Part shown: positions 12,527 through 62,570 of the stretch, one piece after another
How positions within the stretch are numbered: position 1 is the first letter of the stretch
Layout of the letters: every line of letters begins with the position of its first letter
Assembly (NCBI GenBank): GCA_021018995.1
Contig: CM037590.1
Coordinates: 46,659,713 to 46,723,712 of the forward strand
Source: Chloranthus sessilifolius
Taxonomy: Eukaryota > Streptophyta > Magnoliopsida > Chloranthales > Chloranthaceae
Direction: 5' to 3'
Length of the DNA: 64,000 nt
Translations under genes and position numbers: made by a program
Notes under the pieces: generated by a model
Database searches by the model: none
What the model was told of the DNA's origin: nothing
What the model saw: only the letters and a program-made list of their open reading frames with translations

Positions 12527-12528
<2 letters not shown>

Positions 12529-12603: not shown

Positions 12604-12604
<1 letters not shown>

Positions 12605-28167: not shown

Positions 28168-31100
28168 ATGTATCGGAGTGTGGCTACGTCCACCATTCGT
28201 GGTGGGCCTCCTACGGATAGTGGAGATTATGTTGTGAAACTCGATCAAGTTCCACGATGGAGTGATGCAGAGCATCGGATTTCTGCTACATATGAGAGCG
28301 AAGTGTCAAACCCATTCTTTTCTGATCCTCTTACGTCGTCTTCTGGAGCTGAGGGTGGTATCAATGGGTTAGCGTCGAGGTTTCCCGTAGATCACGAAAT
28401 AAATTCGAAGATATATCTGTGGCGCGGAAACCCGTGGAATCTTGAGGTTGATGCTGTTGTTAATTCCACTAATGAGGTGAGCCATTTTGATGAAAAGGGT
28501 ACATTTTACTTAATTGCAGTGTTCCTTAGCGGGTTAGAAAAATTGCATGGTTCACATAAGGTTATTCATTTCTATGGGAAGTAAGTTTGTAGTGCATACA
28601 GTTTTCTTCTTTTTTTTTGTTTGAGCTACTGTACAGTTGGTATGCATGATCACAAATGAGAACCGTCTGCATGGAAAGGCATCATATGGATGGGAGCATG
28701 GTTTTACATATCAGCCATATCCGGTACATGTTGGCCAATATGTATCAGGTTAGGCCCCATCCGATATGATGTACACACCCGATTCGATATGGGGTCAAAT
28801 ATCGGGTCAAACAGGTCAAATATCTGCCCATATCGGGTCATATCAGCTGATATGTATCCGATATGAACCGGACAAAATACCAAAAATGCCCTTTGGGCTA
28901 ATCTTATTGTTATTCTATATATATTTTTTAATATTTTAAAATAAAAAAGGTACTCTAATATCTATCAGGTTTGCCCACGTATCAGCTTGGGACCCGTCCG
29001 ATATGCTTATATCATTAAATCCCTGGATTGGAGTATGGTTAAAAAATAATGCCAAAACTGGGAATTCTAACTTTCCAATTGACTGCATGCAAATGGGCAG
29101 TCAAATATTTACGGGCAGTAGTCTACATTTAATGTGCAAAACTGCATTGTTTGGATGTTAGAATTCTCCATTTGTGAAATTTTTGGGTGTTCCCATCTTT
29201 ATGAATGTTAGCCATGTGGACTGTTCAGATTATGATCAAGTGTGCCAGTTGTTCAACATACCAACGACCTTAGCATACAATACCATGTTCGTCAAGGCGA
29301 GGCCATGGCGAAACAAATCGCGATATGAACCTATATGGCGAGAATGCATATATGGTGCCGCCATGAGCGCGAGTTTATTTATTTTTATAACTTATAAATT
29401 AGAAGTTTTAACTTATAACCTTATAAGTTATAACTTATAAATTATAAAACTTATAAGTTATAAGTTATATTTATAACTTATAACTTATGTTTGATAAATT
29501 ATATCCATTATATTAAGGATTTAAGTGCAACCCTCTAGTCTCTCTAGCAACTCCTCTCTTGCAGCTCCTCTCTCTCGTCTCTCTTTCTCTCTCTCAACGT
29601 TGGTTTGTATATTTTTTAATCTCTCTCGTCTCACTCTTTCTCTTGTCTCGTTTTTTTTATCGGTACTCTCTCTCCTCTCTTTCTCTCTCATTTTTTTAAT
29701 CTGATTTTTGTTAATCCACTTAGCACCTTCGCAATCAATCATCAATCGACAACTCTCAAGTTCTTCGCAGTCCCCCGCGCATATGTGATTTTTTCTTCTG
29801 TTTTTTACTATTTTTCTGTCTCTTTTTTTTTTAATGAACTTTAATACCAACAATTCTTTTTTTTACTGTTTTTTTCATTTGTTATTTTTAGGGGCTGCTA
29901 CTAACCCCCACCATATGCTAAATGTTCCCCATTAGGTACTACTGACTGTTGACGCTTTGAATCGAACTGACATAGATCATTTTTCGCTCCAATCTTCCCC
30001 ACAACTGATCTTGAGATCATGAAAATATCATCAGATGGTCGTTCTAATCTTTCCCCACAAGTGATCTGGTTGATTAATTAGCTGATTTTTTTTTTCTTCT
30101 ACTAATATTAAAAAATATTAGAAAACTAAAAAAATATATTTTAATGATTAATAAATAAGAATAAAAATTATTTTAAAAAAAAATAATATCTGGCCTCGCC
30201 ATGGCATGGTGAGCCTCTTCGCCATGACCTTGCCTCACCGCCTTAACTACCTTGCACCATACCAAATTCTTTGTGTCATATTGGGGTTTAGCTAGTGTTT
30301 TACCAAGATCACTATGTTGGATACCTTGCACAATGCCGAATTCTTTGTTTCATATTGGGGTTTAGCTAGTGTTTTACCAAGATCACTATGTTGGATAGCT
30401 TATACGATGTGAAGGACTAATGTTTGAATTGGATTCTGAGCCTCATTTTGCAAGTGGATATCTTGGCAGAATTTGGATGAAGGGCATAGCAGTCCTGGTT
30501 TGCATGCTGCTGCTGGACCTGGTCTTGCAGAAGAATGTGCGACATTGGTAAGCTCGATGTAGTTATTTTACTTGCTTAGCTACCATTTTTATTACATTGC
30601 TTTTTTTTGTTTTTCCCGACTTGAATTTGCTTTGAGTAGGCAATAGATGGCTTCCTTGTCCAGATTGTTTCACTATGCCTACTTATCTTGGCAGGGTGGA
30701 TGTCGAACTGGAATGGCGAAAGTTACTAATGCATATGATCTGCCTGCTCGGTAGGTTTCTGGTTCTCTTTTTGCTAAACAATTATCTCCGTGATTTTCAT
30801 GAAGTAAATTGTTTGCCTTGTTGAGCACTCAGGAAATGTCTTCTGTTTTTTTTTTTTTTAAATTATTTATAAAGATTGAAACTGTTATTGAAAGAAACAA
30901 AAAGAAAAGTGAAAACACGTGAAAGCCGGTCCAATGGGATAACAACTTATTCAAGCAGAATTGAATTGCCAAAAACAAAAGAATCCCTGTTTACAGCATA
31001 TTTATTGAGGTTGACTGCTATCATATTTGCATAAGGGAACATTTCTTGTATGCCAAACATCATTGAATTTAGTTTAACTGAATACTCAAAGAAATTTCTT

Positions 31101-34100
31101 TATGGCAAACAGAAGATTCCCTGTCTTCTTCCATTATCAATAGAAAACATGTTTTACCAATTTAATCTTTGCTGACATATCAACTTTTGCTGAGAAAGTT
31201 TTTTAAGAAATAAATAAGTTGTTAAAATTTGTTCCTGTGAGCAACTTTTTTGAACATGAGTGCATCAATTTCATTCTTAGAAACCTCACACATAGCTATG
31301 CTCCACATTTTAAGAGCACTTCAAACTTTGTAACCTGTAAAATTACCATCCCTTCATGCCTTTATTCTGTAACAAATCAACCCATTTGGTCCTTTTTTGT
31401 AGCTCCAAGTTCAAACTCATTGTGTTGTCCTCTAATTTACATCAAAATGTAGACTTCTCAGATTCGAAGCAAATTTTTCACCCTATATTGTGCACTGAAT
31501 TTTGCATTTTCAGAGGTGTTGAATTCTGAAGTTGATAAAACTGCCGACATATCCAAAGATCATCTATTTTTACTTCAGTATGAAGTCATTAATTATATCT
31601 AATGAGTTGCTAATTTCTTGTGCTTCGTGGAGAATCCGTTCATGTTAGATATCAACTCCAACTGTTGTCACCTAGCTCAGCGCTGTGTGTGCTTTTGGAA
31701 ACACATTTGCATTTGGATTTATGGCTGGTGTACCTAATATATTCCTAGGCATGATTTCGAAGGTGTGCCATTGTGTCTATAAAATATCATGAGTGATTGA
31801 CAATTTTATTCTTTTTGTTGCTAAAGATTGGATTATTAAAATAAATGTACAAAGAAAACAATTAAAATGAAAGGCTTGCAGCCAAACCAACATAGTAAAA
31901 TAGAAAAAGCAACAGAGAGCGGTGGAAGCGTAGGTCCAGTCACAGTTGACACCATATGAATTACCTCTTTAGCGAGAGTAGTAGCCAACTAGCCATCAAA
32001 ATCATGGTTAATCTTCTGTTCGTAAGATTCAGGGAACCACAAGCAGTGCATTGAAAGAAACATTTGCCAAATGTTATATCAAGTACAGTGTCAACGGTTG
32101 CAAGGATCAAAATTTCGGCCGAAATGACCGAAATTTCGGTCCAAATTATTATTATTATTTTTTTATCAGTAAAACAAGCCATATATATAGAAAAGCCAGC
32201 GAGGAGTTGGAAGCCGAACAAAGGGCCAGAAACGACCAATAAAACAAAATAACAAAAACAAAAAAATGCCTCAAGGCACGAGAGAAAAAATGAAAAGGGG
32301 GAATCTACCCCGGGTCGATGCAATCCGAACTTAAGAGGGCCCCTCCCTTGGTCAACACGATCTAGGAGCACATGAGATCCACTATCACCTTAAGGATCAT
32401 CCCAATTGGCCGGCGAATCTTGCGAAAAATACGGGCATTACGTTCTAACCAAATGTCCCACAAGACAGCAAAAACCGCAGCCCTCCAGTGCGCCCCCGCC
32501 TAACCTCCTAATTTAATGCCCAACCAGGACGAGAGGAGGCTAGGGATAGAGTCCGGGAAAACCTAAGACATATCAAACAAGTTGAGGACAAATCCCCAAA
32601 TCTGGTGCGCAACCTGACAGTGGAGAGACAAATGCGGCGTCGATTCCTCACCGATAAAGCACATAGCACAACGATTAGACAACTCCTTTCCCCTTCGAAT
32701 CAATTGATCTATTGTGAGAACACGGCCCCTGAGGACTGTCCATGAAAAGAATCTCACTTTGGGAGGAACCGGGGCTTTCCAAAGCTTAGCCCACTCGCAC
32801 CGGCATAGAGGACGACCAACAAACATCTGGTAGAAAGATTTGACGGAGAAAGATCCAGATTTGGAAGACATCCAAATTCGCATATCAACTCTAGCACGAT
32901 TCTTGACCATGAGATATAAACTAGTCATTAACTCCTCGAAAGGCCTCAACTCCTCCTCGCTCAGCAACCGCATTGTAAGCACCTCCCAAGACACCGATCC
33001 ACCAATTTCAGCAAACAGATCATCCACCATGGCATTGGTGTTAGAAGCAATAGAGTAAACATCAGCGAATCTTTCCTTCAGTGGCCAATATTCTATCCAA
33101 ATGCCATCCCAAAACCTGATCCTTGTCCTCTCACCCCAACTGAAACAGATTCCCTTAGCATAGAACTTCCAAGTGGAGCAAATACCCTTCCACCAAGTAT
33201 ATGTTTGTCTATTTATCAAAATATTTCGGTCCAAATTGTCGGTTTCGGTCCCCACCGAAACGATAATTTGGACCGAAATTTCGGTCATTTTTGTATGGGA
33301 CCCAAAATTTCGGCCAAAATTTCAGTTTTTGGCCGAAATTTTGGTCCAAATTATCGGTTTCGGTCATGCCCGAAACCAAAATTTTACCCGAAATTTTGAT
33401 CCTTGATCGATTGTGTCTTGTGTTCTTACTTCTTAATTTGTTATTTCTCTTGAATGAGTGTTTTCAGGAACCAATAATTTATGCTAGAGTGAGAGCTCTA
33501 TAACCATCTAATCATAATGATAGTCTATAGCATGGTAGTCAAGGCAGCAACGCTATAGCCTCGCCATGGCAAATGACAATAGAAAATGCCAAATAGCCAT
33601 GATAGATAAATCACGATGCCATAGCATCGCCATGGGAAAATGCCACTATGGCGTCGCTATGCACGTTGTTTATTTTATTTTTGATAATAACGTATAATAC
33701 TAATAAAATAGATAAGTTGTAAGTATGACATTGTTATAACTTATAATATTTATAAGCTATAACATTTTTATAATATATAAGCTACAAAAGCCCAACTTTT
33801 AAGTTATAAAATCCTCCACTCTCTCTCTCTCTCGCTCTTGCCACGAAACCTCAGTGTGTTACCGATCGACAGAACCTCAGCATTGGCAACACTACGGGCT
33901 GTATGTTTGATATTTAAATATTTTTTAATATTCTATATTTGTTTATATTTCATCTTTATTTATTTATCTTACCATGTTGCAAATTTGTTAATGTTCTATT
34001 TGATTTGTATTTATTGATATTTGTTTATGCTTAGAATATGAAATCCTCTATCAGAATCAAAATATGATGCTTTAGTAGTTGAATTTTTTTTCTTCTTATA

Positions 34101-36331
34101 TATTTTTTTATTTTTTCTTCCTATATAAAAATAATAAACAAATAAAAAAATACTACTAATTAATAGATATAATAAAAAATTTAAAAATTAATAAATAGCT
34201 TCGTCATGGCCACCCCATGCCATAGCAAGCCTCTTCGCCAAGACTTCGTTACACCGCCTTAACTACCTTGGTCTATAGTAATCCACAAAGTGATATATAC
34301 TGTAGTTATAACTTTTTCTTACTAGTGATTTTTTTAAAAAAAAGAATCTAAAAAGAAATTAGAACATCAAGGTATTGGGAGACTCCTCTCTTATACAAAC
34401 AAAAACTTTTTCATCCCCATATTTCTAAAGCAAGTCGACTGGATGATTTTTTTCCTTCGAACCTAACCGAAAGTGATGTCAAACCATGAGAATACATTTT
34501 TCATCCAAGAATGAGAAAATTCTCCATGGTCCTTCAGTGTAATTAGTCATCCATGCCATTTCATTTGTCAAATCCCCTTCCAACGTTGATGTGCCTCCAA
34601 GCTTATTTTTAATTACTCGAATATCTTCCAAAACGAATCTACATTTCACTTTGTTTGAGTCTATAATCCCAATCAGACCCGAGAATGACAATTACATTTC
34701 CCCCATGTGATTCCAAAATTCAAATGGCATTGAGTTTCTCCCATATGTTTGGGAAATATCCCCAGTTCCAGGTTGCCAAAATAACTCCCATCAAAGTTGA
34801 ATTCCATCGCTTCTTCCACAGGACAGGTCCATCTTTGAAGTACCTCTTCCTCACACTGCTTGCTAAATAACATGGCCTTCCACCCTTCCATGTTCTGGCA
34901 GAATGTTGGGTTCTTCTTACTGGATTACAAATTGTTGACTCGCACTTCCATGATCCGATTTGACGTGTGGGGGAACTCAACAAATATGATAATGTTGGAT
35001 GTTCAGTGAGGAACGCCTACATTACATTTTAGTGGAGACCTATGATATTATAGAGACATAATTTGTTATTTAAACATTTCAAGAGAGAAGCTAATGGTTG
35101 CCAACACGGGCTTACTTGCCAAAGAGGTTGTGAAACTGTGAATAAAAGCAGATTACATATTGGGGGCATTTTCCTTGTGATGTAATTTTGTTTTGCTGTG
35201 TATCATGTGTTAGTTTCCTCTTTTATTAAGATGGTTTTTTAACCCAAAAAAAACAATTAAAAAAAAAATGGCCTTACAATCTGATCGAGATCTTCAAGCA
35301 ACATTCTGATGTCCTATCCTTTTTTATTTTCTTGTAATCCAATCCAAACATATTATTTTCGGGGTAAAGGTAGCCGCTTGGTCCCATGGACCAGCTAACT
35401 TACCTGGTCCTACACTAATTTGCAGCAACATGGCACCCAATCTCATGATTGGTTGTCATCGATAAGGGCGGCTCAATGGTCATAACTATTTAAAAAATAT
35501 AAAACTGCATAGTCAATGGCTTGAACGTGGTGGGAAATGAACAGTAAAATCAAATGTGATTTTACTGTTAATTTTATGTGATCATCGAGCTGCTCCTATC
35601 TATGGCATCCAATCATGTGATTGGATGTCACATGGCTGAAAGTTAATGTGGGACTAGGTACGTTACCTGGTCCATGGTACTAGGCTACCTTTACCCTTAT
35701 TTTCGATGATCCACTTGTTTCTTTCCTTCTAAGTGCTCTGCATGAGGGCATACAAGAGCATTTGCTAAAGTTTTTAACTAGTGTCAAAAGAAATGGTAGA
35801 AGTGTGAACTTTCAAAGTAACCGACTGATGAGCCATTCTAGAATTAGTCTACCCTTTATAAGTGTGCCTTAGAAAAGGCATATAACACTTTTTTGGACTT
35901 GTCAGTACCTTAGAGAGCAAGCTAGCTAAGGCGGTGTGACAAGGTCATGGCGAAGAGGCTCGCTATGCGATGAAGTGGCCATAGAGAGGCTATTTATTAT
36001 TGTAATTTTTTTAAAAATTTATTTTATCTATTAATTAGTAGTATTTTCTTTTTTATATTTTTTATATAAGGAAAAAATATAGGAAGAAAAAAATTCAATT
36101 ACTAAAGCATCATACTTTAATTTTAATATTGAGAATTTCATGTACTAGGAATAAACAAATATAAACAAATACAAATCAAATATGGAACATCAACAAATTT
36201 GCAACATGGTAAGTAGAAATTAATTAATATGAAATATCAACAAATATAAAATATTAAAAATATGAAATATTAAGTACACATATGATAGTGTCGCCGACGC
36301 TGAAGTTTTGTCGACCCTGGTGTTGGTAGTT

Positions 36332-36381
<50 letters not shown>

Positions 36382-39300
36382 AGGATTTTGTAACTTATAA
36401 GTTAGGGTTTTGTCATGGGTTAAAAATTCGGCAAACCGATACGTATCGTCCAGCCCCAAAGCCTATACGTATCGGTTTCGGACGATACTATGGAATTTTG
36501 AGTTTTGTATGGGAGACACCGATACGGTACCTTGAATGTACCGTATCGGTGAGGTCCAAAACCGATACGTATCGGACGATATTTTGACTCATGAGTTTTG
36601 TAACTTGTAAGTTAACTTTGTAACTTATATATTATAAAAATGTCAACTTATAAGTATTATACGTTATTATCCAAAAAATTAAATGGCATGCATAGCGATG
36701 TCATAATGCTATTCCGCTATGGCAACATTATGGCGTCGCTACTTAGTCTTCATGACTATTTGGTTATATATGGTGTTTCCTATCACCATTCACCATGGCC
36801 ATTCGCCATGGAGAGGCCATGGTGAGGCTATAGTGTGGCCTTGACAAACATGTTTGTGAGACTTCGCATAAGGCTAACAGGCCTAAAATCTTCCACTTCA
36901 TCTATTTCTTCCTTTTTTGGAGAAAGGGTAATAAAAAAGCCTTCATTGTTTTGTTCAGTTGGCCTTGATAATGGAATGCGTTGAACACCTTCATAAATAT
37001 TCCAAAACTCTTGATAAAACATGTTAAAAAATCATCCAAATCTGGTGCCTTTCCCCTTCATTTGAAGATTGCTTTTTTACTCCCTCTGCAGTAAAATTTC
37101 TCTTAACCACACCACCAACACTTGAGTCATATTATCGAAGGGAATTCTCCTGGGCACAGTCAGTCTAGCCTCTGTTTTCTTGGAATATAGGTTTCTTCAA
37201 TACTGAACAGCAGTATTCTTTTTCTCTTCTTCGTCTTCCAATATAATTCCATCACTGTTGATCTTATTTATAGTTTTGTTTTGATTCTTATAGTGTTTTC
37301 CATTTTTGTGCAAGAAGATCGTGTTTTTATCCCTTCTTTAAACCAAAGCACCGTGACTTTTGTCTCCAACAAATTCGCTTATTTACAATGATAACTTTCT
37401 TAGCTGCAAGACTAATGGCCCTTTGCTCATCTACTATGGGAATTATCACATAAGTTTTGAAAATTTCATCTAAAAACCAAATTGCATGTTCAAAAATTAA
37501 ATGATAACAACTATAAATCTCTCAACCTTCTAGTATCTTTCTCTGAGGCTGAATTATCAACTAGGAATTTTGCAAGTTCTAGACTAACTAAATTACAGAA
37601 AAAACCCCAGTAAACAGCAACCAGGTAAGTAAACAACGAAAATTTTTAAGCATTGGGTATTTTTCTGTTCCCAATAAAAAAATATTGGCTATCGTTTCTA
37701 AGAACAGACAAGCCACCCGACAGTGAATTTGACACAAATTACATTTCGTATAAATAGCTCCTTCACCGACGTTCAGACAAACAGCTTTTGTGCGATCATT
37801 CCTAATCCTATTATTACCTGCAAACCCTGGGCTTTTTTTTTTGATTGGCTATCTGGCAAAACCCTGGATATTTATTTCTTGGTGGCACTACTAATTGAAT
37901 AAAAAACTAGAAACTGCAATAATTGAAGGATGTTCTACTAAAAAAACTAAAACCAAAACAATAGTATTTCCCATGGAAATCGTGGGTTTTGTGAGTTACC
38001 AAAGGCACATGCCACTTTGAACGTATATTTCGTGTCATCTAGTTTTTATGAGCTACTTTTCTTGACTATTTTTCACTGTGCACATTTCATAGTTCTGATA
38101 TTTATTTTAGTCAAGTAAATAGTAAATGTGTGGCTTAACCTACAATGCCTGTGCCTTTGTTCTATATGATCTGCCAGGAGGGTTATTCATACGGTCGGCC
38201 CCAAATATGCGGTCAAGTACCATACTGCTGCAGAGAATGCTCTCAGCCACTGCTATCGTGCTTGCCTTGAGCTTCTTATTGAGAACGGACTTCAGAGGTT
38301 GTTGTTGGTGGATGATTCTTATGTTGCATTCTTGGAGCTTTGGGCATTCTTAAATTGTCGTACTCATTTTAAAGATTCTCAAAACTTACCTTAGGTTGGC
38401 ATCTTTAAATGCAGCATTGCTGTTGGCTGTATTTATACAGAGGCAAAAAATTATCCCCGGGAGCCAGCTGCACATGTAGCAATAAGTAAGATACTGCCAT
38501 GTTTTTAGTGTGCCATTCAATTCCCTTCTGTCAATTGCTTCTTTACTTTGGAAATTTTCAGGGACCGTTCGACGCTTTCTGGAGAAGCAGAAAGAAAAAA
38601 TAACTGCTGTTGTTTTTTGTACGACCACATCATCTGATACAGAGATATATAAACGGTACTGCTCCTGTCCACATGTTATACTGGAAAAAATGTTCTTTCA
38701 AAGTGCAGCCAAAGGGTGGAAGTGGTTTCTTTTCATGCATTACATTTTCAAAAGTCTTGAAACTTTCTCTAAATATGTCCAGATGCTACATCAGATGCTT
38801 ACTTTTAATATTTTGTCAAATTTGTTTTGTTGTTTGGGTTTTATTTTCTGATATCACCATGTTATGCAGATTGCTTCCACTTTACTTTCCCAGGGATAAA
38901 CATGAAGAGGAGGTGGCATTGTCAAAACTTCCTGCTGATGTTGGGGATGAGAATGGAGAGACAATAATAACTGAGCGCAAAATCAGAATAAAATCTTTGC
39001 CTGCAGTGTCGACAATCATCCCTAATCCTCCTGCCGTTCCAGTTGATCTTCCTATCAGTGATCATGTTGGACTCACACTGAGACGGTTAGTGACATCCAA
39101 ATCTTATCAAAAGCTATAGATAATTATTCCTTTCTTTCACAAGTATTTAGAGGTTTTATTAAAATATATAACATAAATCCAGCAGAAACCCCAGAAAAGG
39201 CGGAACTGCTGTATGAACCATGGATCAAAATCGTGGTTTCCGGGAATGTATCTTTCGGGCCCCAGAATGATACATTCCTGAATATCGGCCGGCACTTTCA

Positions 39301-42086
39301 ATGTACTGGCAGTACATTGAAAAATGTATTGTCTGGTACCTTTTTATTTTAAAAAGAAAATCTAAAAAAATCATAGAAATTCCTGAAAAAGACTTGTGCA
39401 GGGGCCAACTTTGGGTGTGCAAATAATGGCTCCCTTTACGATGAGCACATGCTTCATAGATTCACGTGGCATAAGTTCAGCCAAACTTGGGGGTTAAGGG
39501 ATTTTAATCTGGGTTAGCCCGGTCTTACCCTATTGCCACATATCTTTGACCCATTGGGTTGGTGTATATCTTTGATCCATTGGGCAAGGTAGGATCAAGC
39601 ATATATCTTTGTCAATTTTGACACAAAGAAATCGACCCGAGCACTGCCAATGGTTCTCAAGTTGGATACAAGAAATACTTATGACCACTTGCGTAGCTAT
39701 AATACATAAAAGTTAGGAAGTCTTCGATTCAATCCCCTCGGTTTACTTTTAAGTTTTTTATTTTTAACAAAATAGTAAGCATTAATTAGTCGATTTGCTG
39801 GAAACACTGAATTGGAATTGGTATTCGGGTTGCTAAGTGAACGCGCTTATTAAGAAGTAACATAGGTTCAATCTCTCTATCCAAAACCCATGGCCCCAAA
39901 TGTCTGAATTTATAGCCGTGATCAGATGTTTAATGATTATCCAATCAATACTGCATTTTTTCTGTGGCCCACGAATTTGAGAGCCCGGATCAATAAAGGT
40001 TTGCACAGCTAATGCGTAGAAATGGGTTCTGTCATAGTGTATGGTGTGACCGTGCACCATATCTAAAAAAATTACAAAATTACAGGATGAAATTGAAATT
40101 TCGTCCGGTAATTTGGGATTTTCAAAATACCGGACGAGACAACTGGTAATTTGGTTGTCTTGTTCAGTAACATGGACGAATTTATGTGTGTATTGGGGGG
40201 AGGGGGGTATTTACCTAAATACCGTACCACCCCTCGCTGAAACCAGTACGCATCGTCTGGTACCTACCCTTCTTGGCTGGAATTTTGAACCATGGTTCGA
40301 ACACATTTTGGACAGCAGGCAAAGTGACATAAGATATAAAAAATGTCAGAGAAAAAATCAGGTATTATGTGTTCACCGTCAGGATGCCGATTGACATATA
40401 ATTAGGGGACGCTCCCCACTTAGACAATTCATCCAGTAAGCAATTCGCGTCACCAGTAAATGCGGGAAAGATGATATTTTTTTAAATATTCATAACTGAA
40501 ATTATTTCTAAACTTGCTCAGCATTACTATTAGATGTTGAATTTATATTAGACAAAAATGTATTGTGGTTAATGCTAAGAATTGTACTGGTATCTCATGA
40601 CAGTTAGATTTTGTAGGTTTAATCACAACTTGTCATTAAAACTACAAAAATAAATTTTTTAAATACGTGATTGTATGCACCAGTTGCATGCATAAATCTA
40701 TATATAATATATTATCATGCTTTTTTTATTGTTCATGTTTAGCGGGCAGTATCCATTTACTGCTGTCAGAGAGCAATTCCTTGTGTCCTTTTTCGATTTT
40801 ATGTTCAAATATTATCCTCCCTGCTGCGTATTTGGTGCTTCTTTCAGTTTTCATTCCCCGGATCATGCTGCACAAGACATTTTGATTGCTTATTCACCCT
40901 TTTGCATATATCGACGCATCAGTTGGATTGATTGAGCAGTGTGTGACTAGTGAAGTCTTTGCTGTTATTAGGGTGGCAACTTAATGCCCCATACGTCCCT
41001 TTTTCGGTTACATTTGGTCTATCTGGATGGATCTAGGAGGTCCAAGATATGGATGCCCTAGAATGATATTGAAAGATCTCATGGTGAAGGCTTTTGAGAG
41101 TAGAGTAGTCTTAAAGGACATAAACCTATAAATAAATCCATTGCAAAGACCAGTAAAAATTTAACATCTTTAACATACCAAAGGAAAAAAATTCAAAAAA
41201 AACAACTCAATGACCATATTCAATAGTAATGAACTGTGAACTGTGAAGAGATGTAGATCCCATCCCAAAAAAGAGAACTCTTAGGCAAAAATTTATAAAT
41301 TTACAAAAAGGTAAAACCTAAATAACTAAAAAATAAGGCTACATGCATAATCCATGTGGATCCCTGTCGAACTAGATTTCAATAAATGTCGTTTGAGGTC
41401 CTTCCTGAAAAAAAATTGGTCTGCAACACTTTTTATGGGTTTAGAATGTATAAATTTTGAGGAGACACATTAGAAGTTTCTATGAGTGTGGCATGGCAGA
41501 TTCCTTAGAATAAGGTGCGATGAGGGACTTTTTATGTACACCTATTTATTTATCTGTTTTTGACAGGTAAATCAGGGTATTGTTAAGAATAGAAGAGTAC
41601 ATAAATAACAACGATTAAAGAGAAAATAAAAAATTGCATTTGGCCAAAAGCGAGAGGCGTTGGCCTAAAAATAAAGATGAACAAAACTGTTTAGTATTTA
41701 CAGCATGTTCAAAGAATTGCCAACTGCCGAGCAACGTATTCAATGTCGGGGTCCCCCACGCCAAGCAAGAATTTACTTAGTTTTTTTCCAATTTCGCCAT
41801 CTTGTCCTGTAATTTTTTAGTCTTGGATTATAAAACACTATCAGACAATAAATTTTTATTACTATCAAACAATAATTTTTTTATAAATTTGAGTATCCAT
41901 TTCAAAACCAATTGGCAATGAGTAGAGGGGCCCATGATCTTATAAGAGGAGAGACGAGGCTATGAATACCCGATGTGAGAATAAACTTCAACAGGCCTTG
42001 CACATGTTGGCCGGATTCAGCCAAATCACGTAGACAATTGAATTGGGTGACGTGGAGTGGAGAAAGGTCTGCTCTGATACCATGAT

Positions 42087-42127
<41 letters not shown>

Positions 42128-51100: not shown

Positions 51101-54084
51101 CTCCCCTCAAAAACACACAGGACCTAGGAATTTACATACCCTCTTGCAAAGTTGGGCACAAGTTAAAACTCCTCCCCAATCCACTTCCCAAGCAAAGAAT
51201 TTAACTTTCTGTGGGACCTCCACTTTCCGCAGCATGACACATAGTTGGTCAATTAAAGGTCTTCTAGTGAGGAACGTGTAAAAAGACTTGACCATAAATT
51301 TACCATTTTCAATCCAACACCACAGCCGTCTATTGTCCCTATTGATCCCCATAGTCACCATGCTAAGCTCCTCTATTAGGGCAACAAACTCTTCCTCNNN
51401 NNNNNNNNNNNNNNNNNNNNNNNNNNNNNNNNNNNNNNNNNNNNNNNNNNNNNNNNNNNNNNNNNNNNNNNNNNNNNNNNNNNNNNNNNNNNNNNNNNNN
51501 NNNNNNNNNNNNNNNNNNNNNNNNNNNNNNNNNNNNNNNNNNNNNNNNNNNNNNNNNNNNNNNNNNNNNNNNNNNNNNNNNNNNNNNNNNNNNNNNNNNN
51601 NNNNNNNNNNNNNNNNNNNNNNNNNNNNNNNNNNNNNNNNNNNNNNNNNNNNNNNNNNNNNNNNNNNNNNNNNNNNNNNNNNNNNNNNNNNNNNNNNCAG
51701 CAAAGACAAATATTCCAAAATACATTTTGTTCCCCCTCACGGATATCCCTCACCTTGGTCTGGTCTGGTATGGAATTGATGATCGAGTCGATTCCATTAT
51801 AAGTTCATAACCCCAACGTTTTTATTCCTTATGAGATTGAAGATCATAGGGATTCTCAAGCTAAGTGGATTGTCCCCACACCATCTATCTTTCCAGAAAC
51901 TATTGGAATCCCCCACCCCTGGATTAAAAATAATTCCCTCATCGAAACTTGTCCTAATCATGTGCACACTTTTCCATTGACCTGATCCAAGACGACCTCT
52001 TGGGCCCTTCGCTCCCCAAGCCTCCCTCTCATCAACGATTCTCCTTAACCACTTTCTAGCAATGCTATGTTCCTCATTTCCAAGGATTTAATCCCCAAAC
52101 CATCTATACAGGGGCTCATCAATCACCAAAAACGCAAGGACAGCTCCCAAAACAGATATGTTCTCTCCAATGAATAAATGGGCTAGCCAATGCAAAGATC
52201 ATAGTTGTATGCTTGTATACATAAAAAATTTCCTAGGCCATAGCCTAAATTTTTTATGAAAGTCACCACCATCATGATCATCGCTTTCTCTTCTACTTGG
52301 GTTTGGCTTTATGTAAATAAAGCTTTCATTGTCAGAAAGGTAATTAAGAACTAGGAAACTACTTTATACATCCAAATATTACTACGTTATTCAATCACAT
52401 CACAGAATTTAAACTCTTAAAAAAATGTTATGACAATTGATTTTTTGCAGAAGTAGCTTCATTGAAACATAAATCTGATTTGAGTATATATCTATGGACA
52501 CCTGAGGTGTCCTGCAGAAGGTCAGGTTGTTGAACTACGTCAGATGTTTTGTTTGCTTAGGGCCGATGTCATATATGCAGGGGATTCTTGAAAGAACTAC
52601 CTTCATTCTTTGCCATATCAATATTTGTTTATAGCAGCGATTAGCACTCAAATATTTATATCTAGGGTAGTTTTTAGTTAATCTTCACACTCCAACCCAT
52701 GATCAGATGGTTTTGGAAGGATGGGATTGCACACTGATCCCTGTTGGTAAAAACTGTTAGGTGCTTAGACATTAATCTCCCCATCCCAACATTTTCTATT
52801 GGACGGCATTAGATTCCTTCATATCTAGTTTAGATATAGATATAATATTAACAAAAATAAAAAAACTCAAATTTTGTATATCTGGTTATTAAGTGACCTT
52901 TGAGCATAAAATTCATTTTGCAAATCCCCTTTATACTACTCTATTCTTTTGTCCTTATCTAATTTAATTATTTGAAATGAGGTAAACAGTCAACCAGATT
53001 TAGGTTGGATGAGGCGATTACAACAAATTCTTGGGCGGAAACACCAGCGTAATCTTCATGTATGTACTCAATTATGGCCAGCTATTCAAAACCCCACATC
53101 ACCAATCATACGTAAAATCTGATTCCTGTCTTGCTGTGTAGGCAATATATGTTCTTCACCCAACATTTGGAGTGAAGGCGGCAATCTTCGCTTTGCAATT
53201 GTTTGTAGATGGAGATGTACGTACACTACCATTTTCTCTCCTCTTTACTCACCCTTCTTTAACCAGTTGATCAACTAGAAAATGGTGTGGTGGTGGTGTC
53301 TTTGCCACGCATAACATGATATATGGTGAGAATGACGTTGTATAGTTGGCATTACATCCAACAAGAATTCAATGGTGAGCGATACATTGCCAAGAGCTAT
53401 GTTACTAGCATCCACCATTGGATTTTACAGTGTTCTCATCATATAATGGTGATCCAGAATTTAAAAACTTGGTCACGTGCTCACACCAATTTTCAAATTA
53501 CCTTTTCAAAGAACTCGGCATAAAACCCGATTCTGCCCCCCAATTTCCTAATCAACAAAATACGATTGTTATCAAGTTGAGCCCATGTCGACGACATACG
53601 GATTGAAAATCTCCTCAAGTATAACATAATTGAAAAAGAGTGCTATTCCTTCTTTGAAAGATCATGGATAATTGACATCTCTTGTGCATCACTCTAGGTG
53701 TGGCGAAAGGTTGCATACATCGATCGGCTTTTGCAGCTGTTCAGATATGTTCCTCGTGAACAGTTGACCATCCCAGATTTTGTGTTCCAGTTGAGTTTTC
53801 TGTTCTTATATCTGGAAATACCATCATAAGCTGAAATATGTGAAACACGTGGTATGAAATTTTGAACATGTGGCAATGAGCTGCGCCCAGAGCCTGGTTC
53901 ATCTATTTCAAACTATGCTGGAGACCTAATATCGAAAGATTCTTTTCATTAATTGCTTACTAGAGGATGGGTTTTAGCCTTTAATATTGTGTGTATATGC
54001 AGGCATGATCTTGAAGTGAATGGGGGGAAGGGTCTTATTGTTGACCCAAGAACAAAGTATATATACCAAAGACCCTCCGCGTAG
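28168..54084 (+). CDS. Macro domain plus CRAL-TRIO protein, GDAP2-like, 14 exons
   Basis: Exons: 28168-28476, 30470-30547, 30695-30750, 38178-38297, 38415-38485, 38562-38655, 38870-39085, 43406-43657, 45255-45363, 47142-47209, 52990-53059, 53142-53216, 53698-53789, 54003-54084. All introns are GT-AG and all phases agree, giving 1692 nt, or 563 residues, ending TAG. The start is ATG 28168 (MYRSVATSTIRGG). The N-terminal half is a macro domain (about 75-265): AVVNSTNE, GPGLAEECATLGGCRTGMA, RRVIHTVGPKY. The C-terminal part (about 399-545) is a CRAL-TRIO/Sec14-like lipid-binding domain: VVVGAHFLLRCLDLERF, VLHPTF, YVPREQLTIPDFVF. This order is that of animal GDAP2 and, from memory, Arabidopsis At1g69340. 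The usual Gly-rich macro loop is replaced by HSSPGLH, so ADP-ribose hydrolysis is doubtful. The role in plants is unknown to me. Introns 3 (7427 bp), 10 (5780) and 7 (4320) are swollen by transposons. Confidence 0.95.
28697..29025. mobile_element. hAT-like MITE in intron 1
   Basis: Ends CATGGTTTTA and (complement) CAGGGATTTAA. Flanking octamers GATGGGAG (28689-28696) and GATTGGAG (29026-29033) differ by one base. The interior is packed with CATATC/GATATG and CGGGTCA words. Confidence 0.75.
29284..30254. mobile_element. hAT-like MITE with GCCATGGCG words, intron 1
   Basis: About 970 bp. Left end CATGTTCGTCAAGGCG, right end complement CAAGGTAGTTAAGGCGG. Flanks TACAATAC and CACCATAC agree at six of eight bases. 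Inside are GCCATGGCG words, TTATAAGTTATAA-type words (29390-29490), a CT-rich stretch (29535-29690) and an inserted piece of the foldback MITE family. It is related to 33531-34270 and 35918-36852. Confidence 0.7.
29895..30075. mobile_element. Foldback MITE fragment inside an hAT-like MITE
   Basis: Shows 'gctttgaatcgaactgacatag', 'atcatttttcgctccaatc' and 'tgatcttgagatcatgaaaa' in left-arm order; the right arm is missing. Confidence 0.55.
30250..30397 (+). repeat. 74-bp tandem duplication spanning an hAT end
   Basis: Two units, about 30250-30323 and 30324-30397, share CCTTGCAC and TCATATTGGGGTTTAGCTAG. The first begins inside the right end of the hAT-like MITE, so the duplication came after that insertion. 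It lies just upstream of exon 2 of the GDAP2-like gene (30470). Confidence 0.85.
32101..33405. mobile_element. hAT-like MITE with TTTCGG words, split by a LINE (intron 3)
   Basis: Left end CAAGGATCAAAATTTCGG; right end is its complement ending at 33405. Flanks AACGGTTG (32093-32100) and ATCGATTG (33406-33413) agree at six of eight bases. The interior is made of ATTTCGG, GGTCCAAATT and CCGAAAC words on both strands. A LINE fills 32148-33222. Confidence 0.75.
32148..33222 (-). mobile_element. 5'-truncated LINE with intact target duplication
   Basis: Minus-strand L1-type LINE end. The translation from 33222 to 32563 gives the zinc-binding RT tail: SGSFSVKSFYQMF, WKAPVPPKVRFFSW, CAMCFIGEESTPHL. 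Past two stops it continues to LWDIWLERNARIFRK. The tail is (ATT)n-like at 32144-32160. ATTTCGGTCCAAATT is present exactly at 32133-32147 and 33223-33237, a 15-bp duplication typical of target-primed insertion. Stops make it inactive. Confidence 0.9.
33531..34270. mobile_element. hAT-like MITE with exact 8-bp duplication, intron 3
   Basis: 740 bp. Left end CATGGTAGTCAAGGCAG; right end complement CAAGGTAGTTAAGGCGG. GTCTATAG flanks it exactly at 33523-33530 and 34271-34278. The interior holds GCCATGGCG and TATGGCG words, TAACTTATAA words and a short CT run. Confidence 0.85.
34437..34985 (-). mobile_element. LINE fragment, RNase H region
   Basis: Minus-strand translation gives the RNase H opening MEFNFDGSYFGN and, one frame over, the closing stretch GPWRIFSFLDEKCIL followed by a decayed REANxxADxLAK-type block near 34440. 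Several stops break it. Confidence 0.65.
34986..35275 (+). mobile_element. LINE 3' end on the opposite strand
   Basis: Plus-strand REANGCQHGLTCQRGC (about 35088-35135) matches the end of LINE RNase H. It is followed by a 3' UTR-like stretch and an A-rich tail (35247-35272). It abuts the minus-strand LINE piece to its left, so this is either two insertions or one inverted insertion. Confidence 0.55.
35362..35696. mobile_element. Mutator-type MITE with exact 9-bp duplication, intron 3
   Basis: 335 bp. Ends GGGTAAAGGTAGCC and its complement GGCTACCTTTACCC, with further matches inward around CCATGGACCAG. TTATTTTCG flanks it exactly at 35353-35361 and 35697-35705. No coding sequence. Confidence 0.85.
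36335..36379. repeat. (GA)n microsatellite
   Basis: About 45 bp of GA dinucleotides inside the hAT-like MITE; a shorter CT run lies at the matching place in the copy at 33531. Confidence 0.95.
36414..36593. mobile_element. Small nested hAT-like MITE built of CCGATACGTATCGG words
   Basis: 180 bp. Ends CATGGGTTAAAAATTCGG and (complement) CATGAGTCAAAATATCG. Flanks GGTTTTGT (36406-36413) and AGTTTTGT (36594-36601) differ at one base. The palindrome CCGATACGTATCGG and close variants occur at least four times. Confidence 0.8.
36853..37480 (-). mobile_element. LINE fragment, start of the RT domain
   Basis: Minus-strand translation shows QEFWNIYEGVQRI, then GFFITLSPKKEEIDEVEDF and RPVSLMRSL, the opening of a plant LINE reverse transcriptase (IPKK...DFRPISL). 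It breaks off exactly at the hAT-like MITE end and its flanking octamer. Confidence 0.7.
39219..40294. mobile_element. hAT-like MITE in intron 7
   Basis: Left end CATGGATCAAAATCG; right end complement CATGGTTCAAAATTCC. Flanks GTATGAAC and GTTCGAAC agree at six of eight bases. The two end regions carry GGTACC, CCGG(T/A) and GTACTGG words. About 700 bp between them (39400-40090) is unrelated and may be a further insertion. Confidence 0.65.
42083..42305 (-). mobile_element. LTR-like segment between a polypurine tract and a primer site
   Basis: On the minus strand TTGCGGGAGGGT (42317-42306) reads as a polypurine tract. About 223 bp of LTR-like sequence follow, ending in a (CT)n run and TTCATCA. 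TGGTATCAGAGC, a perfect copy of the common plant primer-binding site, comes next (42082-42071). Such a PPT-LTR-PBS order is found where two elements share one LTR. Confidence 0.5.
42089..42124. repeat. (GA)n microsatellite
   Basis: About 36 bp of GA dinucleotides at the edge of the LTR-like segment. Confidence 0.95.
43734..44134. mobile_element. Foldback Mutator-type MITE, best-preserved copy (intron 8)
   Basis: 401 bp and palindromic almost end to end. Ends GGGTGCTGTTATTTGCACCC and (complement) GGGTACCATTATTTGCACCC. The left arm TGGATCTTGAGATCATGAGC mirrors GATCTCATGATCCA on the right. Flanking nonamers TTAAAACTT (43725-43733) and TTAAAATTT (44135-44143) differ at one base. It lies 76 bp after exon 8 of the GDAP2-like gene. 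Confidence 0.85.
44650..44885 (+). mobile_element. Probable LINE 3' end (intron 8)
   Basis: Plus-strand NREANSVA/LLANILAKGVEQ-like remnants near 44735-44780, a 3' UTR-like stretch with TTTTATTAATATCATGC, and an A-rich end near 44885. Broken in all frames. Confidence 0.4.
45364..47141. other. Intron 9 of the GDAP2-like gene, no element recognised
   Basis: AT-rich intron sequence. Open frames near 46555-46950 overlap on both strands and have no motif. Confidence 0.5.
48190..50500 (-). mobile_element. Decayed LINE with a GC-rich insert (intron 10)
   Basis: Minus-strand RT remnants near 50480-50180: ISLLSSVYKILAEVL, RWGSLDYM-like and VNGTPTGYF...YRGLRPGD in several frames. The 3' end near 48190-48230 has the TTACCGATAAAAAA tail seen in other LINEs here. 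Between 48440 and 49630 the sequence is GC-rich and unrelated. The RT is broken by many stops. Confidence 0.6.
48440..49630. other. GC-rich block, possible LTR-element remnant
   Basis: Markedly GC-rich. On the minus strand two sites resemble the primer-binding site TGGTATCAGAGC: TTGGTATTAGAGA near 48580-48568 and TGATATCAGAGC near 48677-48665. The first directly follows CGCAACA, a possible LTR end. The words CATGCTGTCGTG and CACGCAGC recur. Open frames exist on both strands, but none has a motif. Confidence 0.45.
50530..52245 (-). mobile_element. LINE C-terminal region, interrupted by an assembly gap (intron 10)
   Basis: Minus strand. From the right: WKSVHMIRTSFDEG, the VGDSNSFWKDRWCGDNPLSLR block, then the gap. 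Beyond it come the zinc-binding tail GKFMVKSFYTFLTRRP, VEVPQKVKFFAWEV and the end region WSYLGLLRLL. The 3' tail is at 50530 (TTATTTTTTGTCGGTAA on the plus strand). Stops and frame changes make it inactive. Confidence 0.8.
51398..51697. other. Assembly gap, 300 N
   Basis: Exactly 300 undetermined bases, probably a gap of estimated or standard size, inside the LINE. Both sides read as LINE on the minus strand. Confidence 0.98.
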
Positions 54085-54560: not shown

Positions 54561-54567
54561 CCTCAGG

Positions 54568-56089: not shown

Positions 56090-56266
56090 CATGGTTCAAA
56101 TTTTCGGTCCAAATCTTTAGATTTCAACCGAAATGTTTGGTTTCGGTCCCCACCAAAACCAAAACGATAACTCAAATTTTCAGGTTTTTTGTACTGTGTT
56201 GAAGATTTTGGTCCAAAATTTCGGTTTCGGTCCCCACCGAAACGAAATCCAATTTTTTGATCCTTG
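56090..56266. mobile_element. hAT-like MITE with TTTCGGTCC words between the convergent genes
   Basis: 177 bp. Ends CATGGTTCAAATTTTCGG and (complement) CAAGGATCAAAAAATTGG. Flanks AATATCAT (56082-56089) and GGTATCAT (56267-56274) differ at two bases, both transitions. The interior repeats TTTCGGTCCCCACC and GGTCCAAAT, as in the element at 32101. Confidence 0.75.
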
Positions 56267-56431: not shown

Positions 56432-56450
56432 TAATAATAATAATAATAAT
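56432..56450. repeat. (ATA)n microsatellite
   Basis: Short run of about six ATA units. Confidence 0.85.
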
Positions 56451-56781: not shown

Positions 56782-59700
56782 TTAGGTATCTTTTTCATCT
56801 CCGCTGTTGTTCGGGTCCACAGGCACTTCGTGTCGAGGCCTGTTGTACTTCTCACGCAGCTGTTTTATAGGGATGAAATCTCCTGCCGCATCCACACCGT
56901 AAAATAAGAAGGAAATATACGGATGATCAAATCTGCCCTGCACATATGATGAGTTTCAAGAAAAAAAAATTGAGAAAAAAGAGAACTTGGACACAGCTAT
57001 CAATATTCAGAGACCTACGTACTCACCCTATCTGGTTGTTCAAAGGCTAACAGATTCTCCTCGGGGACTGCCACACAATCACCATTAGGACAGCATTTGT
57101 AACAGGCAAGTAAGAAAAGCAAATGGATACTGAATCTTTAGTAGTAAAATAAAAATTTAATAATAATTACGAGGGTTAGGGGAACCATAATCATTGTGAT
57201 TGTTGGATAACCCGAAAAATGAGTTGATGCGAGTTTCATAAAACAAAGCTCACCCTCTATGGTTAAGTACGGTGTTAGAGGTTGTCAAAATGCAGCGTAG
57301 AATTTCTCTCTGAACTTTATAGTTTTCCTTTCTCCAAATTCCACAATAAATATTTTATCCACTCCATAAAGAAAAATCAATCATACAACTTACAAGTTAC
57401 AACCTATACACCAGACGCATAAAACTGACAAAATTGACACAGAAATCAAGAAACCCCTCCATTTATATTTTTATTTGTTTACATAAACTTAATATAGTTT
57501 TAGCATTTTTCTAATTATCTACAAACATTTATATATGGTGTAAGTCAGGGGGTATAAGATAAGCAAGGTAAACTAAACGGATCGCAGATACAAATAGAAT
57601 AAAAATAGAAAATTTTCTGCTTTTCTGAAAGAAGATTGAACCACAGTTACTCTTTACCACAAGCCACAGGCAAAGATGTGAAAAGGAAAGACGAGAGGAA
57701 TATATATGGCTAGGACCATGATCCAGATATACAGAGACAAGCAAAAGAAAATTTTTGACCGACTGAATAAATCAAATTGACCAATTAATCTTACCATAAG
57801 TGACCAGTAGGTTTGGGTCTGCATGTACATCAACCAAGACCTGAAAAGCAATAAATATAGTTAAAAAGTTAAAATTTTAAATAAAAAAAAATATATATAC
57901 TTAAAATATTACAAATGATATCATTTATCTATGTTGTTTATCCACATTAGTCTGTCTCAGAAAATCGGAATTCTTCCATCATCAATAAGCACCCTAAATC
58001 CGCATATTAAGTGAGCAATGAGGAGCGCATATGCATGCATGGTTTCATGCACATGGTATCTAACTCAGGATCGGTATCGGTCCATGGAGGACTGGTACGT
58101 ACCGGCCGGTATGAATTTTTTTTAAAGTTTAAAGTGAACTTATTAAAAATAAAAAAATCAAGGGGGTATAGGGCGATACCCGATCCATATCAACCGATAT
58201 GATACCAATACGACCGCGATAGTAGTATTGGGGTGGTATCGGTTTCTGGCAAAACAGATACGTATTGCTGATACGTATCAGTATTGGCCGAGTTTTGATA
58301 CCATGCTCGTGCACATACGTACGGGCACACAAATACAGGCATAATTGATCAAGGGTGAGTCTTCACTGTAACTTGGTGTGGAAACTGAACCATAGCTATC
58401 CACTCAAACTCTGACAGATTTTGATGCAAGAGCCCAAACCTAACAACTGATCAGATATTGGGATCATTGTTGTAGAAAGCAGGAGTGGAGTGTGGGCCCC
58501 ATGCATTTAGCTGACTCAGTCTTTGATTGGATGGCTTGAGAGATCTCATACGCTAAGACGGTCATTTAAAAATATTCATCCATATCTCAACATATTGCAT
58601 AAGAACGCATCTAAAATATCCGAAAGCCCACGTGTATTTATATCTCGATTGTTGTCAAAATAACCTGATAAAATGGTTGACCAGAGCCTCTTGTCAATTT
58701 ATCAATGGACGCAGTCTCCATCCATGAATCTGATTCACAGCAGACAGGATCCATACCACAAATCACAGCTCCATAGCCTGAAATGAGGTAACACACCTTT
58801 ACAACTCAATAAATTAAAATATTTATAAATATATGAAACTTTAAAAAAAAAAAAAACACCAAATCCTTTTGTTGTACTGCATCATCAGTTTTGTTTTTTC
58901 TTCTAATTAAGTTTGTCAAAATGTTTGTGTGCTTACCTTCCAAAGAAGAAGCTACCTACGGTCTTGGGAGTTTTTCGGCTGGGTCTTGTCAACCCCCTCC
59001 CACCAAAACCCAAAGACACGCACGCACACCAAAAGTTCTCTAGACATTCTATGACGATATAAACTCGATTAGCTTATAAAAAACAATTGAAACTCGTTTT
59101 TCTGCCTAATATCTACGTTCACGTTCCTCGCACTTTCTTCCACATTACCTGACAAAGAACTATGGTTAAACTCAGTCTCAACTCTAATAACTTACAAAAA
59201 CATGGAAGTTTTGTAACTATTCCTTCCAATAATTGATACATGTTAGAATTTTAGAGCAGTAAGAAGCAAAGGATATAATGATATGAAAAAACTTATATCA
59301 AAATAGCATAAAACTAGCCCCTAAAAGTGAGATTGAGAAGGCAAGCAAGCTGCATACCAAATATCTTATGCCTTACTTTCTGCCCCAGCCGAAATACATA
59401 TTGTGCATTTTCATATGCCAGAGCTTTTGCTGATGCAGCCAGAGACTCTGCCTGCATTTAAGGATTGCTGATTATATCTCCAAAACCTTAAAGAAAATTC
59501 CAGAAAATCATATGAAAGAATTTGAAGATGAACGTCCCAGCGAAACTCAAGGAACACAGAAAAATGGGTGGGAGAAATCAGAGCAGTTCGAAAATTTTAC
59601 CTCAAGTTTAGTAATTTCATCACGCAACTCAGCAGCTAAAACATAGTTCTCGCTCTCAATTGCTGTCTGCATTCCTGCACTGAAAGGAAAGAAGCAGAGG

Positions 59701-61285: not shown

Positions 61286-61289
61286 CTTC

Positions 61290-61792
61290 GTTCTTAGAAA
61301 GATGGCTTTACGGCACAGTTGTTAAAATATTGGAAAACATATTTCCTGGAAGAAGGTACCTTGGAAATTCTTTTTCTATGATTTAAGTTTATAGGCTTTG
61401 GGCAATTTGGTTGGAGAGGAATGCCAAGGTACCCGTGGATACAATAGATCGATTCTTGCTGTGTTGAGAGGTGCGAAGGAGAAGATCAGACATTGGGTCC
61501 AAGAGAAGAGGTCCAGTAGGTTGTATGTTCACTGGTATCCATGTCCAGTGGGACTCCATGTTTGAAAGAATTCAATAGAATCATTGAAGCTGGTCGTTCT
61601 CCTAGTCCTTGAGGTGTCGTTTGGGTCTAGGGTAACGCCATGTTCTTCTGTATGGGATCCTAGCTGTGTAGTGCCTTTCTAGGAGGTAGGTGTTGTGGGC
61701 TGTTCGTACTCTCAGCTTCTCGCTGAAGCACAGGTATGTAATTTTTCCTTTTATTAACAAATTTTTTTATTTTATTAATCCAAAAAAAAAAA
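61290..61792 (+). mobile_element. LINE 3' end
   Basis: Plus-strand RLWAIWLERNAKVP (about 61395-61436) matches the conserved tail of plant LINE ORF2. A 3' UTR-like region and a poly(A) run (61782-61791) follow. Truncated at the 5' side. Confidence 0.65.
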
Positions 61793-62248
61793 TCACGTTT
61801 GCTGCCAACACAGGTTCCTAGGGACTTCCTAGCCCAATCATCCAATGTTTGTTATTAGAGATCACCACTTTCCACGATGCAAGAAAATGCCTCACTCCAA
61901 TTCTCCTCCACCTCCATTACCATCACTAGCTCTCCCTCATGTTAAAAGCTTGATGCATTTCCATGGACAATGGAACTCCATGGAGGGAAGGATGGAGTTC
62001 TGCTTTTGCCTCTTTTCCTAAAAAATGAAAGGGCCCTCCATAGAAAATAACGACAACAAACATGGCAAATATATTTTTCCATGGAAACGAGATTACACCA
62101 TAAGGAACCCAATTTAACAAATGTGCACTCAAAGTAATATAGGGTTTTACTGGTAAAAGTTTCAAAACTCTCTTTTTTGTGGATGTTGACGTAAGATCAG
62201 CAAGAAGACACTATGAGAGGCAACAAGAACATATTTGTAAATGGCAAT

Positions 62249-62570
62249 CATGGTATCAAGTATTTACCGATACTGATACATATCGGTACCTGGCCAAACC
62301 AACACTGATACCAGCATCAAAATTGGTTTTGTACCCGTTATCTAAAACTTTTTTTTAACACTTATTGTGGAACATATATATATATGGTAAACCGTATGCC
62401 GTATGTTTAAGATATACTCATGGTTTAGCATATTCACATGTATATTAAACCATGGGTTTAAAGTATACCGCACTCTCAAAATTTCTTGCTTCAATAAAAA
62501 AAACTTAAAAAAAAAATCCCTGTATCAATCCAAAGATTGGCCAATACTGGTACTGCGAGTTGATTCCTTG
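62249..62570. mobile_element. hAT-like MITE with exact 8-bp duplication
   Basis: 322 bp. Ends CATGGTATCAAG and (complement) CAAGGAATCAAC. ATGGCAAT flanks it exactly at 62241-62248 and 62571-62578. The end regions carry CCGATACTG, GATACATATCGG and GGTACC words. The middle is AT-rich. Confidence 0.85.

Follow-up and report, generated by a model that had tools for sequence, protein, structure and literature searches.

In maize, the Ac/Ds elements have 8-bp target-site duplications (TSDs), short terminal inverted repeats (TIRs) and, within about 200 bp of each end, many copies of the hexamer AAACGG that are bound by Ac transposase, and Ds1 and Ds-l4 have common ends with other interiors (excerpts of PMC3260210). 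Here we describe eleven elements in a 64,000-nt stretch of the genome of the flowering plant Chloranthus sessilifolius, referred to below as the window (G000:C7:46659713-46723712; the genome comprises 2.17 Gb in 32 contigs). Like Ac/Ds as excerpted, the elements have 8-bp TSDs and short TIRs, and several of them have subterminal arrays of short repeated sequences, here called words. In the same excerpts Ac/Ds has one hexamer per family; by contrast, elements with similar ends carry different words here, words occupy much of the element in one family (family B below), and AAACGG, present eight times in the whole window, has no copy in any of the eleven. It is likely that the elements are non-autonomous hAT transposons, or miniature inverted-repeat transposable elements (MITEs), of several families, and that the words are sites for the transposase that moves each family. 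By analogy, the words that stand behind shared outer ends are probably the binding sites of different transposases.

Short subterminal motifs are also bound by the transposases of two animal hAT elements. The BED domains of Hermes bind cooperatively to a quasi-palindromic subterminal pair (excerpts of PMC10368747), and Herves transposase requires a subterminal motif, CG/AATTCAT; excerpts of the latter account add that subterminal regions differ between hATs, "ensuring the specificity" (PMC3143072). Unlike the words described here, these motifs as excerpted have other cores and few copies, and MITE groups with differing words do not figure in those excerpts. In a protein-array study, again known to us from excerpts, CGG or CGC, set among diverse flanks, was the usual preference of DNA-binding domains derived from hAT transposases, and hAT proteins had motifs that matched the subterminal regions of their own elements (PMC8097297); the hexamer of Ac likewise has a CGG core (excerpts of PMC3260210). 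The words of the present elements resemble this pattern of diverse specificities around a CGG or CGC trinucleotide. The excerpts of the array study name proteins from animals and one fungus, and the word 'plant' is absent from its main text, whereas here it is the DNA side that is seen, and in a plant. MITEs of the hAT type are themselves of a known, Ac/Ds-like kind, and what is new is the differing, mostly CGG-anchored words behind similar ends. In titles and abstract openings, with subscription journals mostly outside the search, we found no description of plant hAT MITEs that share ends and differ in their subterminal words. What is at stake is the means by which a transposase distinguishes the elements it moves from relatives whose ends are nearly identical, and the way in which such specificity changes.

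Shared ends, flanking repeats and genome-wide copies

An earlier note on this DNA had proposed that at least eleven elements start with CATGG or CAAGG (CATAG in 6342), share ends and have 8-bp flanking repeats, and the stated start, a partner end and the flanking repeats were recovered for each of the eleven (Table 1; elements are named by their first position in the window). The flanks were identical in three of them (6342, 33531 and 62249), had one mismatch in two (28697 and 36414) and two mismatches in six (29284, 32101, 35918, 39219, 56090 and 58052). These mismatches sum to 14, against a mean of 57 in 20,000 random re-pairings, none of which gave 14 or fewer. The pairing script required CA...TG, so that end pair is present by construction; beyond the required CA, G was found at position 4 in 20 of the 22 ends and at position 5 in 18, and A at position 11 in 21. 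When boundaries could be chosen freely, the best flank pair had two mismatches for 11 of the 168 CANGG starts in the window, the real elements included. Since two-mismatch flanks are frequent under these conditions, the six members that have them depend on family membership and not on their flanks alone, and 39219 is the least secure of the eleven. The reading of 6342-14452 as one copy split by an insertion was borne out by a whole relative of 268 bp at locus L072, alignable to each of the two outer parts (77% over 128 bp and 73% over 79 bp).

Two families were followed through the genome, family A with 33531 and family B with 36414 as query; 40 copies were scored of 2,505 and 2,606 first-look candidates, respectively, and copy counts are lower bounds. 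In family A (mean pairwise identity 84%), 34 of the 39 other scored copies aligned from query position 1-9 to 738-750, the true ends being 7 and 746, and in family B all 39 started at query position 2-12 and stopped at 177-197. Flanks were read for 28 of the 40 scored copies of family A and had no mismatch in 11, one in 12, two or three in 2 and six or seven in 3 (unrefined values over all 28). In the mispaired control, which used the 21 of these copies that have CA..TG near the mapped ends, 2 of 420 pairs differed at one position. For family B the flanks of 30 of the 40 scored copies were read, 15 being exact and 7 having one mismatch, and none of 870 mispaired flanks had one mismatch or fewer. 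We conclude that the ends are constant across copies in both families tested and that flanks with no or one mismatch (23 of 28 in family A, 22 of 30 in family B) are far above what random octamers would give; the two outcomes that the earlier note had named as fatal to its proposal, unrelated copies without shared ends and flanks no more alike than chance, were thus not seen. Short, non-coding and multicopy with constant ends, families A and B have the properties of MITEs, and the 8-bp TSD of hAT elements was found both in these families and in the window elements. One locus, L043:1501-1897, holds a tandem pair of family B elements with a common inner end, by eye a composite MITE.

The hAT superfamily has the target motif nTnnnnAn and short, imperfect TIRs of the (C/T)A..GG type. 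The window ends fit this type, with the G at positions 4 and 5 free of script constraint and the CA imposed. Within families A and B, where the target bias was measured, T at TSD position 2 and A at position 7 accounted for 43 of 90 places, compared with 267 of 896 for control octamers taken nearby (p = 5e-4, one-sided Fisher test), a bias that is modest in size. Nested insertions gave empty sites: the insertion point of 36414, which lies inside 35918, is uninterrupted in other family A copies (five best displayed), and the MITE at L072 interrupts an Ac-type hAT element, where alignments with nine distinct relatives end. A de novo scan of 190 kb (the window plus the flanks of fetched copies) found 41 CA..TG pairs that have 8-bp flanking repeats, compared with 3-7 when the flanks were shifted; the majority of the 41 are copies fetched as such, and further elements with the same ends were found at L008:311-657, L008:1072-1361, L037:1344-1444 and L057:77-352. 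Taken together, the 8-bp duplications across the genome, the target bias, the empty sites of nested insertions, and a size and copy number typical of MITEs give good support to the identification as hAT-like MITEs.

Duplications of about 8 bp are also made by the P and Merlin superfamilies. An origin in one of these would be in keeping with the outcome of our search with hAT profiles, not aimed at P or Merlin genes, in which no transposase with CAWGG ends came to light. We give this alternative almost no credence, because the target bias of families A and B and the word architecture are of hAT type and the genome has many hAT genes (4,130 PF05699 and 6,301 PF04937 loose candidates, with 150 scored for each).

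Words in the elements and at the ends of hAT transposons

Each group of elements had been assigned a word of its own in the earlier note, and this assignment was upheld in part. It can be seen that TTTCGGTCC is confined to the two elements for which it was proposed, with four of its seven window occurrences in 32101 and three in 56090. In contrast, the core CGATACGTATCG occurs twice in the window, both times in 36414, and is missing from 58052 and 62249, to which it had also been assigned; likewise GCCATGGCGA has two copies in 29284, one in 33531 and none in 35918. Four copies of CATATCGG are present in 28697, and one each in 58052 and 62249. Exact 7-mers, counted with the inserts of 6342 and 32101 excluded, were in excess in six elements, such that at most 3 of 300 dinucleotide shuffles were as high: ATTTCGG in 6342 (five copies) and 32101 (ten), ATATCGG in 28697 (five), CGATACG in 36414 (seven), ACCGAAA in 56090 (six) and GATACCA in 58052 (four). 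Among 300 random windows of the same genome, the number as high was 8 for 6342, 7 for 28697, 0 for 32101, 1 each for 36414 and 56090, and 18 for 58052.

Word arrays stand at both ends in several elements. The family A consensus has eight copies of CCATGGC in its outer 230 bp, and this word is not among the top words of its middle. In family B the 201-nt consensus has 11 copies of CGATAC, counted over the two strands, and folds back on itself along almost its whole length as a hairpin of -100.4 kcal/mol; 200 shuffles of its two-base blocks gave -50.4 +/- 4.4, a control weaker than a true dinucleotide shuffle. Such a hairpin would be expected if the words were a by-product of palindromic DNA, in which short inverted duplications arising during replication or repair had multiplied paired copies throughout the element, and if the hairpin itself mattered, for example in amplification or through small RNAs, and not a protein. 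We consider a foldback origin of this kind unlikely: the middle of family A lacks the word among its top words, a complete 4.6-kb hAT transposon (DIYL, see below) has word arrays at two distant outer ends with a transposase frame between them, and hairpin formation does not predict the CGG richness at the ends of six hAT clades.

These clades come from transposons with a transposase gene. Fifty of the 150 scored PF05699 matches were read (30 loci and 20 fetched); in 24 of the 50 the end was not located or not used, and the arrays of L072 and L087, judged to be nested MITEs, do not figure among the hAT ends. The 26 located 3' ends fall into six clades, named by eye from the domain sequence: DIYL (9), DLYL (7), EYYF (6), EVER (2), EKYL (1) and L079 (1). 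All are of TAGGG(N)T type, some of them decayed, and the same word architecture is present behind them. Per last 150 bp, AGCTCG averaged 7.4 in DIYL and 0-0.4 in the other clades, CGGGCC 3.0-4.4 in DLYL and EKYL and 0-0.3 elsewhere, and AACCGA 3.0-9.0 in EYYF, EVER and L079 and 0-0.8 elsewhere, giving three word types over six clades that scarcely mix among the 26 ends. Neither CGATAC nor ATGGCG was found in these 26 ends. The complete DIYL element, 4,600 bp on C8 with the exact TSD ACTGCAAA, has AGCTCG/CCGAGC words at both ends and a 590-aa frame with a hAT-like_RNase-H domain; its short upstream frame had no Pfam match. A BED finger was found in a DLYL element. TTTCGG, which is the word of the MITE group 32101/56090, occurs 3.7 times per 150 bp in EYYF 3' ends (L059-L108), here behind a TAGGGATG end. 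The frames of 681 and 687 aa at L059 and L061 are without word arrays and may be host genes. We take it that the proposal of the earlier note, that the words are transposase-binding subterminal repeats, gains strength by analogy with the arrays at these 26 ends; the binding is the part that we infer.

CGG and CGC were counted on both strands per 100 positions, with family A represented by 8 of the 28 copies. Over the last 150 bp of the six clades CGG stood at 4.1-12.8, against 0.0-1.1 outside, and CGC at 0.0-1.4. At the MITE ends CGG was 2.3-6.1, against 0.3-2.7 in the flanks, 39219 being barely raised (2.3 against 1.4). The exception was family A, the ends of which have no consistent CGG excess and show CGC instead (3.1-4.0 against 0.0-0.4). 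CGA was also high in most groups, where the words read TCGG, and in family B both CGA and CGT were level with CGG. The CGG/CGC anchor is thus a regularity, not a law.

Most words contain CpG, and in family A copies conservation is lowest at CpG positions (0.78, compared with 0.92 in spacers), the pattern that methylation would produce. Both observations would suit words that serve the host or silencing, as CpG-rich targets of methylation or of host factors, and not a transposase. This seems very improbable to us, as the arrays occupy the ends of transposons and do not run on past the element border, and the six clades are enriched in CGG, not CGC, and therefore not in CpG as such.

Genomic context of the elements

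The elements of the window are listed in Table 1 together with the 3' ends of the six hAT clades and a further MITE found beside a hAT gene.

Table 1. MITEs and 3' ends of transposase-bearing hAT clades. Numerical positions are those of the window.
Feature	Position	Strand	Ends; TSD	Words and remarks
MITE, TTTCGG/AATTTCG group	6342..14452	.	CATAGTGACAA; exact TSD ATTGGGAC	split by ~7.8 kb of other repeats; relative L072:942-1209
MITE	28697..29025	.	CATGGTTTTA / CAGGGATTTA; TSD GATGGGAG/GATTGGAG	word CATATCGG
Family A MITE, decayed	29284..30254	+	CATGTTCGTCAAGGCG / CAAGGTAGTTAAGGCG	right end inside 74-bp tandem duplication
TTTCGGTCC-group MITE	32101..33405	.	CAAGGATCAAAATTTCGG at both ends	contains LINE-like zf-RVT fragment
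Family A MITE	33531..34270	+	exact TSD GTCTATAG	39 other scored genome copies
Family A MITE	35918..36852	-		family B MITE nested inside
Family B MITE	36414..36593	+		CGATAC word; nested in 35918-36852; 39 other scored genome copies
Putative MITE	39219..40294	.	CATGGATCAAAAT / CATGGTTCAAAAT	weak word content
TTTCGGTCC-group MITE	56090..56266	.	CATGGTTCAAATTTTCGG / CAAGGATCAAAAAATTGG	
CATGGTATC-group MITE	58052..58305	.		words GATACC/CGATAC, excess borderline; similar: L008:1072-1361, L057:77-352
CATGGTATC-group MITE	62249..62570	.	exact TSD ATGGCAAT	few decayed words near ends
DIYL 3' end			TAGGGCTGCAACCGAG	AGCTCG
DLYL 3' end			TAGGGCTGTCAACGGGCC	CGGGCC
EYYF 3' end			TAGGGATGCAGGTTCGG	AACCGA
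EVER 3' end			TAGGGGTGTAATCGGG	AACCGA
EKYL 3' end			TAGGGCTCTCAATGGGCC	CCCGGC/CGGGCC
L079 3' end			TAGGGGTGTATTCGG	CAAACC and AACCGA
CAAGGTATC-type MITE	L114, coding orientation 356-692			downstream of DUF659 hAT; right end twice in tandem

The 74-bp tandem duplication at 30248-30395 (95% identity) spans the right end of 29284 plus flank. The insert that splits 6342 runs from about 6467 to 14230 (approximate limits), starts near TACTATATAT, stops near CACGTGCATGTTTACTAG and may contain further repeats; we take these borders to resemble Helitron ends. A zf-RVT piece (PF13966) at 32563-33321 overlaps the interior of 32101. Exon-like pieces of a macro-domain gene (PF01661, from a hand-joined protein) were found at 28135-39090, on both sides of the MITE cluster; elements 28697-36852 are probably within introns of this gene, and its long introns may explain the clustering. 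In the same region, at 35362-35696, there is a palindromic element with GGGTAAAGGTAGCC... ends (read by eye) and 118-nt arms that are 75% complementary; exact copies of a 9-bp repeat, TTATTTTCG, flank it, and it resembles a Mutator-type MITE. Elsewhere in the window there is a reverse transcriptase piece (PF07727) at 228-908, presumably Copia-type, and a run of 300 N at about 51380-51680.

All 150 scored PF04937 matches (DUF659-type hAT) exceeded 180 bits, dozens of them with frames above 400 aa, and these genes apparently form a large, fairly young family in the genome. Downstream of the DUF659 transposase frame at L113 there is a CAAGGTATCAAA... end (CAAGGTATC type) with TATCGG words. DUF659 hAT elements (L113/L114) were considered as a source of CAWGG ends and rejected, the stretch being best explained, by eye, as a nested MITE; at L114 it has a word / AT-rich / word plan, the left end CACTGAAATCAAAATTC and the flanks CTC-TTTT / CTCATTTT with a 1-bp gap.

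Words as possible sites of transposase recognition

Common to the group are the outermost bases (CAWGG, in part CAWGGWTCAAAAT) and, as the TSDs suggest, a staggered cut of 8 bp. Inward of these bases, each end tends to continue for 100-200 bp as an array of one short word, which is often self-complementary and has CGG as its core (CGC in family A). Such a word would be recognised by the BED zinc finger and a neighbouring DNA-binding domain of the family's transposase, and paired copies could accommodate two adjacent BED domains of one transposase multimer. To a greater degree than the shared outer end, the word content would then decide which transposase can mobilise an element, and when a transposase lineage shifted in specificity its elements would acquire the new word at all positions, so that word and transposase would change in a coupled manner.

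Several results weigh against this interpretation or narrow its reach. Significant exact 7-mer excess was absent from 29284, 33531, 35918, 39219 and 62249 (300 dinucleotide shuffles), and that of 58052 is borderline against genomic windows; the description of each interior as many copies of one word was overstated, being too strong for the first five of these among the eleven window copies. The near-complete hairpin of family B could by itself account for paired words. With CpG positions excluded, the conservation of words did not exceed that of spacers in family A (p = 0.999 for an excess), and in family B it did so slightly (p = 0.026). EYYF elements have high CGG and CGC (3.8 each) also 300-450 bp inside the end. 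The word types are not clade-specific, AACCGA being common to three clades and CGGGCC/CCCGGC to two. When 5' ends were sought for three transposase-bearing elements, one gave a TSD-flanked end pair, and the EYYF and DLYL elements did not. In 134 kb of hAT loci a scan detected three end pairs, the L072 element among them, against 0-9 in controls, which is no excess. The 50 PF05699 and two PF04937 matches read, of 150 scored for each and with 26 ends located, yielded no transposase with CAWGG ends, and the CAWGG end at L113/L114 is probably that of a nested MITE. Finally, the genome-wide follow-up covered families A and B, that is two of about six MITE groups.

A further explanation is that CAWGG ends are short and common and belong to independent hAT families, the words of which differ by origin with nothing having been replaced. 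This is compatible with words as binding sites and opposes only the replacement part of the explanation we prefer. Only about 5-13 bp are common to the group, and the inner part of the ends is different in 28697, 6342 and family A; the transposase-bearing clades equally combine a common TAGGG(N)T with different words. One word can also be found in clades whose ends differ (EYYF and EVER; DLYL and EKYL), which shows that word and lineage do not correspond one to one. Against independent origins, a 13-bp sequence, CAWGG(A/G)TCAAAAT, stands behind different words in 32101, 39219, L037, L008:311-657 and family B, which on sequence grounds would point to common descent of these ends. We regard independent families as a serious possibility, somewhat short of an even chance.

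The preferred reading is that the words are transposase sites. The earlier note went further, suggesting that words have been homogenised within elements and replaced between them, tracking different transposases. This is a good hypothesis that can be tested and falls short of a result, because no transposase with CAWGG ends was found among the matches read and some clades share a word.

A bolder view, which we put forward tentatively and think rather doubtful, is that hAT ends are a readable record of transposase recognition, in which the CGG/CGC anchor is kept and the letters around it change together in every copy. Groups of MITEs that have the same outer ends and different words would then be fossils of successive BED changes in one lineage, and the code that relates word to BED domain could be deduced from genomes alone. 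If the words do track BED domains, plant genomes would offer a large set of natural pairings between DNA-binding domain and binding site, and the word, as well as the TIR, could link an orphan MITE to its transposase.

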